Below, piece by piece: positions 31,741 through 38,811 of a stretch of DNA of 64,000 nucleotides. Both the position numbers and the translations under genes were made by a program. Every line of letters begins with the position of its first letter. Position 1 is the first letter of the stretch. This DNA comes from Prosthecobacter sp. SYSU 5D2 (GTDB lineage: Bacteria > Verrucomicrobiota > Verrucomicrobiia > Verrucomicrobiales > Verrucomicrobiaceae). The notes under the pieces are model-generated. The model was not told where the DNA came from. It saw only the letters and a list, made by a program, of their open reading frames with translations, and searched no databases. The stretch covers positions 1 through 64,000 of the forward strand of contig NZ_JBBYXL010000007.1 in the NCBI RefSeq assembly GCF_039655865.1. The letters are read 5' to 3'.

Positions 31741-32670
31741 ATGAACCTGCGCCGCTGGACTGACTTCCTCGTGCTCCTGGCCGTCTGGGCAGGCATGATC
31801 CTGCTCTTCGGTCTCCTGCGGGACAGCTTTTTCAGCGCGGCCACACTTGGCTCGGTGGCCAACCGCATTCCGGCTCTGGCCCTGGTCGCTACGGGCATGA
31901 CATTGGTGATGGTGACGGGTGGCATTGACCTCTCGGTTGGCTCTGTGCTGGGTCTTTGTGGAGCCGTGGTAGGTGTCGTGATGGCGGACTGGCAATGGGG
32001 TCTGCCTGGCGCACTGCTGGCCAGTCTTGTCGTGGGCACTCTTGTAGGTAGCATCAATGGAGTCGTCAGCGTGAAGCTGCGGCTGCCTTCCTTCATCGTC
32101 ACCCTCGGCATGCTGGAGATCGCCCGGGGGCTGGCGTTCCTGACCACGGATTCGCAGACCAAATACATTGGTGCGCCGGTGGAATCTCTCGGCGCGCCCA
32201 TCGGCGGCTGGGTGATCTCCCCGGCTTTCATCATCGCACTGATCGTCGTGGCCTGCGGCCAGATCATGCTTTCACACATGGCGTTAGGCCGCCACCTGCT
32301 GGCCATCGGTGCCAACCGCGAAGCCGCCCTCATCTCAGGCGTCCCGGTGGACCGTCCGCGCATCCTTGCCCATGCCCTGTTAGGCACGCTCACAGGCCTG
32401 GCGGCGGTCTTCAACTGCTCCCGCCTGGGCTCAGCCGATCCTAATGCAGGCATCGGCTTTGAACTCTCCGCCATCGCCGCCGTGGTTGTCGGTGGTACCA
32501 GCCTCATGGGTGGGCGCGGTTCCGTGATCAAGAGTCTCCTCGGCGTCCTCATCATCGCCACCCTGGAAGCCGGACTGGTCCAGATCGGAGCCTCTGAACC
32601 CATCAAACGCGTCGTGACCGGAGCCGTCATCGTCGCCGCCGTCCTGGCCGATGGCTGGCGCAGGAAATAA
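31741..32670 (+). CDS. Sugar ABC transporter permease, RbsC-like
   Basis: 309 residues, about eight to ten membrane helices. Family landmarks: ALVATGMTLVMVTGGIDLSV-GSVLGL, SFIVTLGMLEIARGLAFLTT, AIGANREAALISGVPVDRPR and IGFELSAIAAVVVGGTSLMG-GRGSV. It is the inner-membrane channel of a ribose-type importer. The usual partner RbsA (double ATPase) is not found in this cluster or anywhere in the window. Its stop overlaps the start of the nuclease gene (TAATGG). Confidence 0.9.
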   Translation: MNLRRWTDFLVLLAVWAGMILLFGLLRDSFFSAATLGSVANRIPALALVATGMTLVMVTGGIDLSVGSVLGLCGAVVGVVMADWQWGLPGALLASLVVGTLVGSINGVVSVKLRLPSFIVTLGMLEIARGLAFLTTDSQTKYIGAPVESLGAPIGGWVISPAFIIALIVVACGQIMLSHMALGRHLLAIGANREAALISGVPVDRPRILAHALLGTLTGLAAVFNCSRLGSADPNAGIGFELSAIAAVVVGGTSLMGGRGSVIKSLLGVLIIATLEAGLVQIGASEPIKRVVTGAVIVAAVLADGWRRK

Positions 32671-33917
32671 TGGAGATCATGAAAACCAAAAAGACCTCAA
32701 GCTCATCTGCCAAGCAGCAAGGTTACAAACACCTTGTTACTGCGATTACCCGGCTCAGCCTTAAGATGTCACACCGGGTGGCTTCCGTCGCCAATCAGGG
32801 ACTGGTGCTGCGTAACTGGACCGTCGGTGCCTACATCGTGGAGTTTGAGCAAGGCGGTGCAGACCGGGCCAAATATGGAGAGCGCTTGTTGGAAAAACTG
32901 GCTGAGGATTTGGCGAAGAAAAACCTCAGAGGGCTGGATGAGAGAACCCTCCGTCACTGCCGCGCCTTTAGCCAAATGTATCCTCAGCTTCGTTTTTCCC
33001 TGAACCCTCAATGGACAGATCAATTGTCGAAAGACCCGGTTGTTAAAATCCTTGCATCCATAGACGACCCAAAACTTTTGGAGATTCGGTGTCCGGCAGA
33101 CCCCGAATTAAAACAGCCCATTCGGGGTCCACTGGTTCCCGAATTGCCGACTCTCTTGCCTACGGAATTTGTAATCGAACTTGGCTGGGCCAAGCTGCTG
33201 GAATTCATGCGGATCAGCGATCCTTGGAAACGCGCGTTTTATGAAAATCAGTGCCTTTCTGAAAAGTGGTCAAAACGCGAACTCCAGCGCCAGATCGAAA
33301 GCTTGCTCTATGAGCGCACCGGCCTTTCCACACACAAAAAGGCGGTGATAGAGCGAGCACGGAAGCAAGCAGGCTCCGCCGCTCCGGAATCAATCGCGGA
33401 GCTGATGCGCGATCCCTACATTCTGGAGTTTACCGGACTCGCAGAACGTCCAGAATACAGCGAGAATGATCTGGAATCTGCCCTGCTGGACCACCTTCAG
33501 CGCTTCCTGCTGGAACTGGGCAACGGATTCTGTTTCGAGGCACGCCAGTTCCGCATGACCGAGGGACGCAAACATCACCGGGTGGACCTGGTCTTTTATC
33601 ATCGCGTTCTGCGATGCCATGTACTGTTGGATCTCAAAACGCGGGCATTCAAACCGGAGGATGCCGGACAGATGAACTTTTATCTGAACTGGTTCAAAGC
33701 CCGGATGAAGCAGGAAACGGATATTCCCCCTGTCGGCATCCTACTCTGCACTGACAAAGAAGGCACCGAAGTAGAATTCGCCACCGCAGGCATGGATCAG
33801 AAGCTCTTCGTCTCACGTTATCTCACCGCCTTGCCAACGGCAGACCAGCTCAAAAACCTCGTCGAAGCCGACCGTGCACAAATGCAACCTAAGTCTGACC
33901 GCAGACGACCTTTATAA
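32670..33917 (+). CDS. DUF1016 (YhcG-type) PD-(D/E)xK nuclease-domain protein
   Basis: 415 residues. The N-terminal half has the DUF1016 segment (SVANQGLVLRNWTVGAYIVE, YGERLLEKLAEDLAKKNLRG, LDERTLRHCRAFSQMYP). The C-terminal half is a PD-(D/E)xK nuclease domain: HHRVDLVFYHRVLRCHVLLD followed by LKTRAFKPEDAGQMNFYL, providing Asp, Asp and Lys of the active site. The family occurs in defence islands and mobile DNA; its role is not settled. Here it overlaps the permease stop and precedes a nucleoside hydrolase, an odd position. Codon use is less GC-biased than its neighbours, suggesting insertion into the cluster. An alternative ATG is at 32679. Confidence 0.88.
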   Translation: MEIMKTKKTSSSSAKQQGYKHLVTAITRLSLKMSHRVASVANQGLVLRNWTVGAYIVEFEQGGADRAKYGERLLEKLAEDLAKKNLRGLDERTLRHCRAFSQMYPQLRFSLNPQWTDQLSKDPVVKILASIDDPKLLEIRCPADPELKQPIRGPLVPELPTLLPTEFVIELGWAKLLEFMRISDPWKRAFYENQCLSEKWSKRELQRQIESLLYERTGLSTHKKAVIERARKQAGSAAPESIAELMRDPYILEFTGLAERPEYSENDLESALLDHLQRFLLELGNGFCFEARQFRMTEGRKHHRVDLVFYHRVLRCHVLLDLKTRAFKPEDAGQMNFYLNWFKARMKQETDIPPVGILLCTDKEGTEVEFATAGMDQKLFVSRYLTALPTADQLKNLVEADRAQMQPKSDRRRPL

Positions 33918-36054: not shown

Positions 36055-37617
36055 TCAGAAATTCCACTGAAGCTGCAGGCCCAGTCGGTCCGCATTGTTC
36101 ACTTCATCATACGGGGCCACCGCCGTATTCGTGCGGGCAAAGGTATGCGTATACATCAGCACCAGCTCCAGCTCTGGCACGGGTGACCATTCCAGGCCGA
36201 TATCCAGCTCCGAGACATTGTCGCAGGGAGAGTTTGTGCCAAATTTACGCCCGCCCTCATAGTGGTTATAGCGTACAAAAGGCAGCCAGTTGCTCTTTCC
36301 GTCCTGGATACGATAGCTGGCCTGCACATACCCGCCCTGCAGGGGGGCCGTCTCAATGGATTTCATATCATTCGTGAGCTGCGGCCCCTGTCCCCAGGCC
36401 CATTCGGCCTCGATCCCGAAAGGTTGCGGATAAAGCACATAGGTCAGTGCCGCCCGCTGGTCCGTGTTCCCCCGCGCGGGTGAAGATGGCGTGCCAGATC
36501 CAGGAATATTGGAGACGCGGGAGACAAAACTGCCGGTATAACCCTGCACGCCAAATTCCATGATCTGTCCGTTTTTGAACTCCACCGGATAAGAGAACCG
36601 CGCCACATAATGCGGCTGGCCGTTAAGGTCGCTCCGGTTCAGGCCCTGGCCGGAATACGCACCAATGCCGAACACCCCATAATCGCCGGAGCCTTTGAGC
36701 CCCTCTTTGACCAGTCTGCTGAAGAGCTTACGCTTCTCCTTCGGTGCCCAATAGAAGTAAGCCCCGATGTCACGCTCCCCTTCCACCGCCGAATTCAGCG
36801 CATCCGGACGCTCCAGGGCTGCACGGTTCTGGCTGGACTGAAGGTTGACGAAGCCAAAGGGAACCTTCGACTGGCCCACCCGGAAGCGGAATTCCTTGTC
36901 CGTATCCAGGGCGATATCCGCATAAAGGTCGCGCATTTGCAGCACATAATCTCCACTGCCATTGGAAGCATTGTAATCCGACTGCGCATAAAGGTAAACG
37001 TGATCGGACACATCTCCGCTGAGAATCAGACGTCCCCGGCGGATCATGAAGGACTCCGTATCACTCACGGAGCGGTCATTCGGGACGTTTAATCCATCGG
37101 AATTTTCTCCATATAGAGCATGGTACCGCAACTGCACGTATCCGCGGAAGCTCAGATTCTCATACCATTTATCCTCCAGCATCCTGTCCATCAGCTCCTT
37201 CGGGGTTTCAGCAGACAGTTTGTCCAGCTCAGCCAGGGACTGGCGGCTTTCGGCGATCTGGGCATCCAGCGCTTTCATTTCCGCCTCGGTTTCGGAAATC
37301 CGGCGGTCCATGGCATCCAGCCTTTCCATCGAAGGCTGCTCCACGGGAGCAACCGCTGCCACAGCGGGAGGAGTGGAGGCGGCTTTGGCCTCGTCTGCCT
37401 GCGCAACGATGACTAACTGGTCATATTCCTCCTGAGAGATGGAGCCTTTGGCCTTCAGAATCTCAAACAACTTAAGCAAGGCAGCATTGTCAGCCATTAC
37501 CCGGGGGGGCAACGCAAGGGTGCCGAGAGTGCAGACGACAGTCAAAGCCCGGAGGCTTTGTGACAACTTAGACAGAACGGTGGTGGGCATGCGGTTTCGC
37601 AGTGACATGACTGTCAC
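36055..37617 (-). CDS. Outer-membrane porin, OprO/OprP type
   Basis: 520 residues. A signal peptide (LRALTVVCTLGTLALPPRVM) is followed by a coiled-coil segment (about 90-135, MERLDAMDRRISETEAEMKA) and a beta barrel starting WYENLSFRGYVQLRYHALYG, with ADIALDTDKEFRFRVGQSKV-PFG characteristic of the phosphate-selective porin O/P family, ending in NADRLGLQLQWNF with the C-terminal Phe needed for outer-membrane insertion. It likely forms a trimeric anion channel. The gene's 5' side faces a cluster of palindromic sites shared with the aldo/keto reductase gene. Confidence 0.88.
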   Translation of the reverse strand: MTVMSLRNRMPTTVLSKLSQSLRALTVVCTLGTLALPPRVMADNAALLKLFEILKAKGSISQEEYDQLVIVAQADEAKAASTPPAVAAVAPVEQPSMERLDAMDRRISETEAEMKALDAQIAESRQSLAELDKLSAETPKELMDRMLEDKWYENLSFRGYVQLRYHALYGENSDGLNVPNDRSVSDTESFMIRRGRLILSGDVSDHVYLYAQSDYNASNGSGDYVLQMRDLYADIALDTDKEFRFRVGQSKVPFGFVNLQSSQNRAALERPDALNSAVEGERDIGAYFYWAPKEKRKLFSRLVKEGLKGSGDYGVFGIGAYSGQGLNRSDLNGQPHYVARFSYPVEFKNGQIMEFGVQGYTGSFVSRVSNIPGSGTPSSPARGNTDQRAALTYVLYPQPFGIEAEWAWGQGPQLTNDMKSIETAPLQGGYVQASYRIQDGKSNWLPFVRYNHYEGGRKFGTNSPCDNVSELDIGLEWSPVPELELVLMYTHTFARTNTAVAPYDEVNNADRLGLQLQWNF

Positions 37618-37732
37618 ATGGAAAGATTTTGCCCGAATGCGTACCGATGCTCTGTGACATGTTCGTCACATTTGCCGTCAAAAACGCCTGTTTTGTGACA
37701 AAGCACCGTCACAAAGCCCGAAAAACGTCACA
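37602..37732. promoter_or_regulatory. Cluster of TGTGAC/GTCACA palindromes in divergent promoter region
   Basis: Three inverted repeats with the same arm: GTGAC-N6-GTCAC at 37602-37617 (covering the porin start), TGTGAC-N6-GTCACA at 37653-37670, and TTTGTGAC-N8-GTCACAAA at 37692-37715 with perfect 8-bp arms, plus a half site CGTCACA near 37726. They resemble Crp/Fnr-class operators (TGTGA...TCACA), but the spacing between TGTGA and TCACA is eight or more bases instead of six. Their repetition between two divergent genes argues for a dedicated regulator. Confidence 0.6.
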
Positions 37733-37770: not shown

Positions 37771-38811
37771 ATGGAACGCAAACGACTTGGAAAAAGCGGC
37801 ATTGTGGTGACAGACATCTGCATGGGGACCATGACCTTTGGTCTCCAGGCGGACGAGGCCACCTCATTCGCCGTCATGGACCGGGCTTATGAGGCGGGAA
37901 TTGACTTCTTCGACGCGGCGGAAATGTACCCCGTCCCACCCAGCGCAGAGCGTTTTGGCATCACCGAACAGATCGTCGGCCGGTGGCTGAAAACGAAAAA
38001 CCGTGGCGAGGTCATCCTCGCCACCAAGATCACCGGGCCCGGCCACGGCTGGTTCCGCCCGCCAATACGCGGCGGTTTTACGGCATTGGACCGCCGGCAG
38101 ATCTTCCAGGCCTGCGAGGACAGCCTGCGCCGCCTGCAGACCGACTACATTGACCTCTACCAGACCCACTGGCCCGACCATGGCATGCGCCAGGAGGACA
38201 CCCTGGAAGCCCTCACTGACCTGGTAAAACAGGGAAAAGTCCGCGCCATCGGCTGCAGCAATGAAACCAGCTGGGGCCTCATGAAAAACCTCTGGGCCTC
38301 CGAAAAGCACCACCTGGCCCGCTTTGACACCGTCCAGAACAACTTCTCCCTCATCAACCGCCGCTGCCAGAACGAGCTGGCCCAGGTCTGCCGGATGGAA
38401 GGCGTCAGCCTCCTGCCCTATTCCCCCCTCGGCGGAGGCGTGCTGACCGGCAAATACAATGGCGGCGCCCTCCCGCCCGGAGCACGTTTTAGCGAATACC
38501 TCGTCAATGGGGGTGAGCGCCAGCAGCGAATGGCCCGGCGTTTTGTCAATGACCGCAGCCTGGCCACCACCGCCCGGCTGATGGAAATCGCCGCCGATAT
38601 CGGCACAAGCGTGACCGCCCTCTCGGTAGCCTGGAGCCGTCAGCATGACTTCGTTGCTTCCACCATCATTGGCGCCACCACCGTGGACCAGCTCAATGAA
38701 AGCCTGCAGGCAGCGGAACTGATCCTCGATGCGGAAACCCTTCGCCGCATTGACGAAGTTGAGGTCGAAATTCCCAATCCCATGACTGAAGACGGCCTCA
38801 GGCGGCTCTAA
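37771..38811 (+). CDS. Aldo/keto reductase
   Basis: 346 residues with the (beta/alpha)8 fold of NADPH-dependent aldo/keto reductases. Begins MERKRLGKSGIVVTDICMGT; catalytic residues appear as Asp in GIDFFDAAEMYP, Tyr in the same motif, Lys in VILATKITGPG and His in DLYQTHWPD. The C-terminal part has NNFSLINRRCQ and LPYSPLGGGVLTGKY. Similar to E. coli Tas-like members. Substrate unknown. Shares its upstream region with the porin gene. Confidence 0.92.
   Translation: MERKRLGKSGIVVTDICMGTMTFGLQADEATSFAVMDRAYEAGIDFFDAAEMYPVPPSAERFGITEQIVGRWLKTKNRGEVILATKITGPGHGWFRPPIRGGFTALDRRQIFQACEDSLRRLQTDYIDLYQTHWPDHGMRQEDTLEALTDLVKQGKVRAIGCSNETSWGLMKNLWASEKHHLARFDTVQNNFSLINRRCQNELAQVCRMEGVSLLPYSPLGGGVLTGKYNGGALPPGARFSEYLVNGGERQQRMARRFVNDRSLATTARLMEIAADIGTSVTALSVAWSRQHDFVASTIIGATTVDQLNESLQAAELILDAETLRRIDEVEVEIPNPMTEDGLRRL

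Follow-up and report, generated by a model that had tools for sequence, protein, structure and literature searches.

Which regulator acts on the region between a porin gene and the divergent aldo/keto reductase (AKR) gene beside it, where palindromes built from the arms TGTGAC and GTCACA are clustered? The original prediction took this region for the control region of a dedicated switch serving both genes. The analysis reported here points elsewhere: judged from sequence, the palindromes are with high probability Pho boxes, which would be bound by phosphorylated PhoB (PhoB~P) and from which the porin would be activated at low phosphate. The consensus TGTGACR-N4-YGTCACA (core GTGAC-N6-GTCAC) very probably marks the Pho regulon of this bacterium. 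What is unusual lies in the mirrored operator, the regulon itself being of an ordinary kind.

Palindromes and other elements of the porin–AKR region

All coordinates are those of the 64-kb window (the whole stretch of DNA that was analysed) and the features are specified in Table 1.

Table 1. Features of the porin–AKR region, in window coordinates.
Feature	Position	Strand	Description
Porin gene	36055..37608	-	PF07396 Porin_O_P, 'phosphate-selective porin O and P'
Extra TGTGAC arm	37559-37564	.	Within the porin reading frame; overlooked in the original prediction
Second box (palindrome)	37601-37618	.	AGTGAC-N6-GTCACA, overlaps the porin start codon
Possible -10-like element	37637-37643	-	TACGCAT, 9 bp on the porin side of the main box
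Main box	37653-37670	.	TGTGAC-N6-GTCACA, separated from the porin ATG by 44 bp on its upstream side
Perfect 8-bp arms of the N8 element	37692-37715		TTTGTGAC/GTCACAAA
Wider (N8) element	37694-37713	.	TGTGAC-N8-GTCACA
Lone half-site	37727-37732	.	GTCACA, part of the original prediction
AKR gene	37771..38811	+	PF00248, divergent from the porin gene

The porin scored 120 bits against the PF07396 profile (cut-off 20.9) and passed the gathering score, and this membership gave the first hint of a phosphate function. The OprP/OprO-type porins of Pseudomonas aeruginosa belong to the same Pfam family, and OprP is under Pho control; the likeness is a match at the family level only, at which phosphate or anion selectivity of the present porin is putative. 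The closest named relative found was encoded in a Prosthecobacter MAG (83% identity over 260 residues), and the porin was present in 36 of 68 family genomes, its own genome counted. The porin start was set at the ATG at 37608-37606 (minus strand), adopted from the close orthologues, which have this ATG in common and not the next ATG downstream; the ORF lister had started the gene at GTG 37617.

The letters of the three same-arm palindromes and of the half-site were found as originally predicted, as were the perfect 8-bp arms of one palindrome; the overlap of another with the porin start codon was upheld by the orthologue-based ATG. Exact TGTGAC-N4..10-GTCACA occurred twice in the window, both times in the porin–AKR region (0.01 expected from shuffled sequences). 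The single hexamer showed no enrichment (22 observed, 25.7 expected), and 7 of these 22 were concentrated at 37559-37732.

In an alignment of six species, the TGTGACA of the main box was invariant and the other arm differed by one letter in one species, the box being exact in the other five. Both GTGACATG and GTCACA of the second box were invariant; one arm doubles as coding sequence (Met-Ser), and since the outer, AKR-facing arm is non-coding yet invariant in all six species, this box probably has a function, which may be that of a brake or of a cooperative site. In the N8 element both hexamers were invariant around a varying spacer, the 8-bp arms not wholly so, and the element may be an AKR promoter site or an upstream site. 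The TGTGAC arm within the porin reading frame was also invariant. The lone half-site had no invariant letter among its six and is probably a chance occurrence.

TACGCAT, a possible -10-like element of the putative porin promoter, was invariant in five of seven columns. Nine bp separate it (37643-37637 on the porin strand) from the end of the main box, so that the box probably lies where an activator would sit over the -35 region. Neither the start-codon box nor the N8 element is placed as a simple activator site would be.

The box in the genome

In a genome scan of the kind suggested with the original prediction, the genome (5.87 Mb in 26 contigs, the window being on contig 7) contained 11 GTGAC-N6-GTCAC cores against 3 for the reversed control, with six of the 11 in four Pho promoters and five elsewhere. 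Two core sites are in the porin promoter, one precedes pstS (the only PF12849 gene found, with TIGR02136 above its cut-off), one precedes a pstC-like gene (best match TIGR02138, 188 bits, cut-off 196) and two lie between phoB-phoR and a divergent glycosyltransferase–metallophosphatase–PhoU operon (agt-plcP-phoU). Another core site was located between a DUF3450 gene, adjoined by a MotA/TolQ/ExbB gene, and a hybrid kinase gene. A two-mismatch pattern search was discarded, as it gave no discrimination (123 matches against 119 in the control).

PhoB, PhoR, PhoU, PstS and a Pst permease (searched for by its PstC component) are encoded in the genome, the PhoB, PhoR and PstC assignments being made at scores under the equivalog cut-offs. 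As with the Pho box of E. coli and others, the sites stand upstream of pst/pho genes, the phoB promoter itself being boxed, and comprise two TGTCA-type half-sites at an 11-bp pitch. The half-sites of the E. coli box are direct repeats, whereas those of TGTGACR-N4-YGTCACA are inverted at most sites found here.

The PlcP/Agt-like pair shares a single operon with phoU, divergent from phoB-phoR (L056:188-2966), and the glycosyltransferase and phosphatase resemble the PlcP-Agt lipid-remodelling genes. PlcP of marine bacteria is described as phosphate-starvation induced and often in an operon with a glycosyltransferase, with Pho boxes predicted (PMC4796936, in part). At 24 of the 30 best phoB loci, an agt homologue was present on the fetched stretch. 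The box would place pst transport, the PF07396 porin and a lipid-remodelling operon of PlcP/Agt type under one common signal.

Separately, at L057 (G000:C11:157575-157628) a near-consensus inverted box was observed close to a direct GTCAC-N6-GTCAC; these sites have an outer-membrane beta-barrel gene on one side and a gene of TPR/trypsin-like type on the other, a possible further regulon member.

Occurrence of the box in related genomes

All the counts below include related species, which are not independent of one another. Porin loci were counted at 29 of 30 loci, a porin fragment (L016) being dropped. The exact GTGAC-N6-GTCAC core was present at 22 of the 29 and lacking at seven; the motif is thus present in orthologous promoters, and its absence there had been named with the original prediction as grounds for refutation. 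No exact N6 core was found on the fetched stretches of the Planctomycete-labelled relatives (L005, L006). At distant porin loci (about 50% identical), the divergent neighbour was a pstS-type gene in 23 of 24 cases; at locus L027, no pstS-type gene was found on the short fetched stretch, which reaches the contig end.

In 20 genomes of the genus, TGTGAC-N3..12-GTCACA occurred 67 times: 32 sites had exactly N6, and the nine other spacers together accounted for 35. Twenty of the 32 N6 sites face Pho-type genes, namely 14 homologues of this porin, one pstS, four other PF07396 porins (one of these sites, L100, adjoins pst genes) and one PhoU-like/PHO4 transporter pair. No Pho-type neighbour was found at the remaining 12; at eight of these a neighbour was searched with Pfam, and four were only placed within predicted ORFs. 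The phoB and AKR surveys each used the 30 best loci from larger match lists; at least one box was found within 320 bp upstream of phoB at 30 of 30 loci, representing two genera (three loci belong to genus g5).

The family searched (f1) is taken to be the Verrucomicrobiaceae because Prosthecobacter, source of the closest named porin relative, belongs there. Twenty genomes from ten other genera of this family contained 96 boxes against 26 in the control, with fewer boxes than control in two genomes (G001, G002). Forty-two of the 96 sites were fetched, picked non-randomly among the matches listed and favouring A/T-rich spacers, and 23 of these 42 abut phoB, phoU, pstS, pstC/A, agt-plcP or PF07396-type porins. 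One further fetched site (L198:2288) is upstream of a DUF3419 gene, which we take to encode the betaine-lipid enzyme BtaA; a box at this position would fit phosphate-sparing lipids.

A phylum-wide box was rejected, with counts near control outside the family: 16 boxes against 13 in same-class genomes of other orders (n=23), and 31 against 28 in 76 other genomes outside the family. Sister family f2 (14 genomes) gave a small excess, 13 boxes against 2. Among 20 fetched outside-family sites (of 60, hand-picked non-randomly toward A/T-rich spacers), none was near Pho-gene homologues, as searched with Verrucomicrobiaceae queries at E<=1e-6, a threshold that distant homologues could escape.

A Pho box of Verrucomicrobia was not found described in the open-access literature, which is weak evidence with most subscription journals outside coverage; phoRB and pst genes have been reported from freshwater Verrucomicrobia MAGs (PMC5615132, in part). 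In the Verrucomicrobiaceae, a family for which no Pho box description was found, the consensus would serve directly as a marker of the phosphate-starvation regulon.

Two recurrent positions outside the named Pho genes were also noted. In three genomes, each from a different genus (L105, L205, L218), outer-membrane secretion genes of ShlB/FhaC type have the box upstream, and a phosphate-controlled secretion pathway is possible there. It also precedes a DUF3450 gene in two genera (L061:2998, L199:597), where energised outer-membrane uptake (DUF3450/ExbB) may be part of the phosphate response.

Orientation of the half-sites

Pho boxes elsewhere are described as direct repeats bound head-to-tail (PMC4415409, in part), and OmpR/PhoB regulators as mostly binding direct repeats, with HP1043 among the few exceptions (PMC3960148, in part). 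In the 29 porin and 30 phoB promoters, 80 pairs of GTSAC at 11-bp pitch were found: 79 GTGAC..GTCAC, one GTCAC..GTGAC and no direct pair, neither GTGAC..GTGAC nor GTCAC..GTCAC. The porin promoters had 35 GTGAC..GTCAC pairs (0.01 expected) and the one GTCAC..GTGAC; in the phoB promoters all 44 of 44 pairs were GTGAC..GTCAC. The loci were selected by protein, so site selection did not dictate the orientation. On this pair test, the idea of an ordinary direct-repeat Pho box was rejected for most sites.

The weighted consensus of the box was TGTGAC-R-R-A-W-N-Y-GTCACA. The mirroring extends to its flanks (T on the outside, R/Y on the inside), with a column overlap of 0.81 when mirrored against 0.63 at an 11-bp shift, a comparison made on sites preselected by the inverted core.

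When any middle base was allowed, the porin promoters also contained eight GTGAC..GTAAC and two GTTAC..GTCAC pairs of the inverted type, together with eight GTTAC..GTGAC and one GTGAC..GTTAC of the direct type; minority direct-type sites had mostly GTTAC/GTAAC halves. A direct E. coli-type GTCAC-N6-GTCAC, GTCACATTCCTGTCAC, adjoins the inverted box of pstS (L038:4603-4618; G000:C8:352602-352617), and nine of the 27 regions upstream of pstS contained GTCAC-N6-GTAAC; these nine are probably the eight GTTAC..GTGAC sites read on the opposite strand. Genome-wide, exact direct GTCAC-N6-GTCAC was not clearly enriched (8 over both strands, 5 in the control).

The half-sites being mirror images, PhoB may bind in two-fold symmetry, whereas on the Pho box of E. 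coli it sits head-to-tail. We give a little under an even chance to the proposal that PhoB of the Verrucomicrobiaceae acts on the palindrome with two-fold-symmetric DNA-binding domains one helical turn apart and near-same recognition residues. If true, the head-to-tail rule of PhoB-type regulators would be broken, and the family would offer a natural experiment in which an operator half-site was flipped while the reading head stayed unchanged. The box thereby makes an unusual claim testable, that of a PhoB-type regulator using inverted half-sites.

A serious possibility, also given less than an even chance, is that PhoB binds head-to-tail in the ordinary manner and the box, which would still be a Pho box, merely looks inverted: GTNAC is near-palindromic, and its middle base would differ between the upstream and downstream subunit. 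The eight direct-type GTTAC..GTGAC pairs in porin promoters favour this arrangement, as do the top matches of the DNA-binding domain of the PhoB candidate, 8hml and 8hig (labelled only 'OmpR family regulator'), which we take to be GlnR. GlnR of S. venezuelae binds a GTnAC-n6-GTnAC site head-to-tail (PMC10704036, in part), so PhoB could conceivably form a tandem complex even where the site looks inverted. Against it stand the strict orientation of GTSAC (79 to 1, with no direct pair in 59 promoters) and the mirrored flanks of the sites chosen by their inverted core.

Two further known systems are close to this one. The actinomycete GlnR box has the same 5+6+5 layout and is bound by a related OmpR-type DNA-binding domain, but it serves nitrogen genes, whereas the genes found here belong to phosphate metabolism and G and C mostly occupy the middle positions. 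HP1043-type regulators provide a precedent for inverted half-sites in the OmpR/PhoB family (PMC3960148, in part); HP1043 is an atypical response regulator, whereas a PhoR-PhoB pair is present here, and the likeness drawn is in half-site orientation.

Candidate regulator and proposed mechanism

The best equivalog match of the PhoB candidate was TIGR02154 (PhoB) at 241 bits, under the cut-off of 296, so its name rests largely on context; among solved structures, MtrA was the best full-length match. Aligned with E. coli PhoB, 93 of 226 residues were identical, including R193, T194, D196, H198, R201, R203, T217, R219 and Y223, which are presumably DNA-contacting residues of the recognition helix and wing. 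We infer that this protein binds the box.

It is improbable that a different, two-fold-symmetric regulator binds the box at the Pho genes, with PhoB occupying direct-repeat sites of its own. Mirror symmetry is the usual form for classical dimeric regulators, and direct sites do exist before pstS, both GTCACATTCCTGTCAC and the GTCAC-N6-GTAAC of 9 of 27 regions. However, phoB is the sole DNA-binding regulator repeatedly found with the box among the annotated neighbours (30 of 30 loci), PhoB sites have the same 11-bp pitch, and the exact direct repeat lacks clear enrichment over control. The half-site YGTCACA is also similar to CTGTCAT, the Pho half-site of E. coli (PMC4415409, in part).

With PhoB as the regulator, the porin would be controlled as follows. 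Upon phosphate shortage, the sensor kinase PhoR would phosphorylate PhoB, and a PhoB~P dimer would occupy TGTGACR-N4-YGTCACA with one recognition helix per GTSAC half-site, 11 bp (one turn) apart. PhoB~P would then bring RNA polymerase to the promoter of the porin gene. The putative activating site is the main box, 9 bp ahead of the conserved -10-like element. Through the same box, phoB-phoR, pstS, the pstC-like gene and agt-plcP-phoU would be switched on. The porin would let phosphate (or phosphate-containing anions) across the outer membrane alongside the inner-membrane pump; a box common to the porin and pst genes suggests that the two act together.

The AKR gene and other alternatives

At E<=1e-130, 56 of 67 genomes have the AKR gene. 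Of its 30 best loci, six have an exact box (N6 or N8) upstream and the other 24 have none. The porin gene lies opposite in five of these six; the fetched stretch of the remaining one (L144) reaches only about 300 bp beyond the AKR gene on its upstream side.

These loci served as the control by which the porin/reductase switch was rejected, and we consider that explanation very unlikely. Conservation of the N8 hexamers at six loci of the AKR–porin clade speaks for it; the 24 AKR loci without a box, which are those outside this clade, and the same box at other Pho promoters speak against it. Of the original prediction, a conserved cis-regulatory region was retained. Its dedication to the two genes was not, as the box also precedes pstS, the pstC-like gene, phoB and agt-plcP-phoU, and neither was the AKR gene as switch partner, which is probably a passenger.

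A Crp/Fnr-type operator, suggested by a superficial TGTGA..TCACA likeness, has a negligible chance and was rejected: the Crp consensus is TGTGA-N6-TCACA, whereas the spacing, different as originally predicted, is N8 in the two narrow boxes and N10 in the wide one, and the accompanying genes are phosphate genes.

Elsewhere in the window, a DUF1016/YhcG PDDEXK nuclease gene was noted at 32670-33917 (+).
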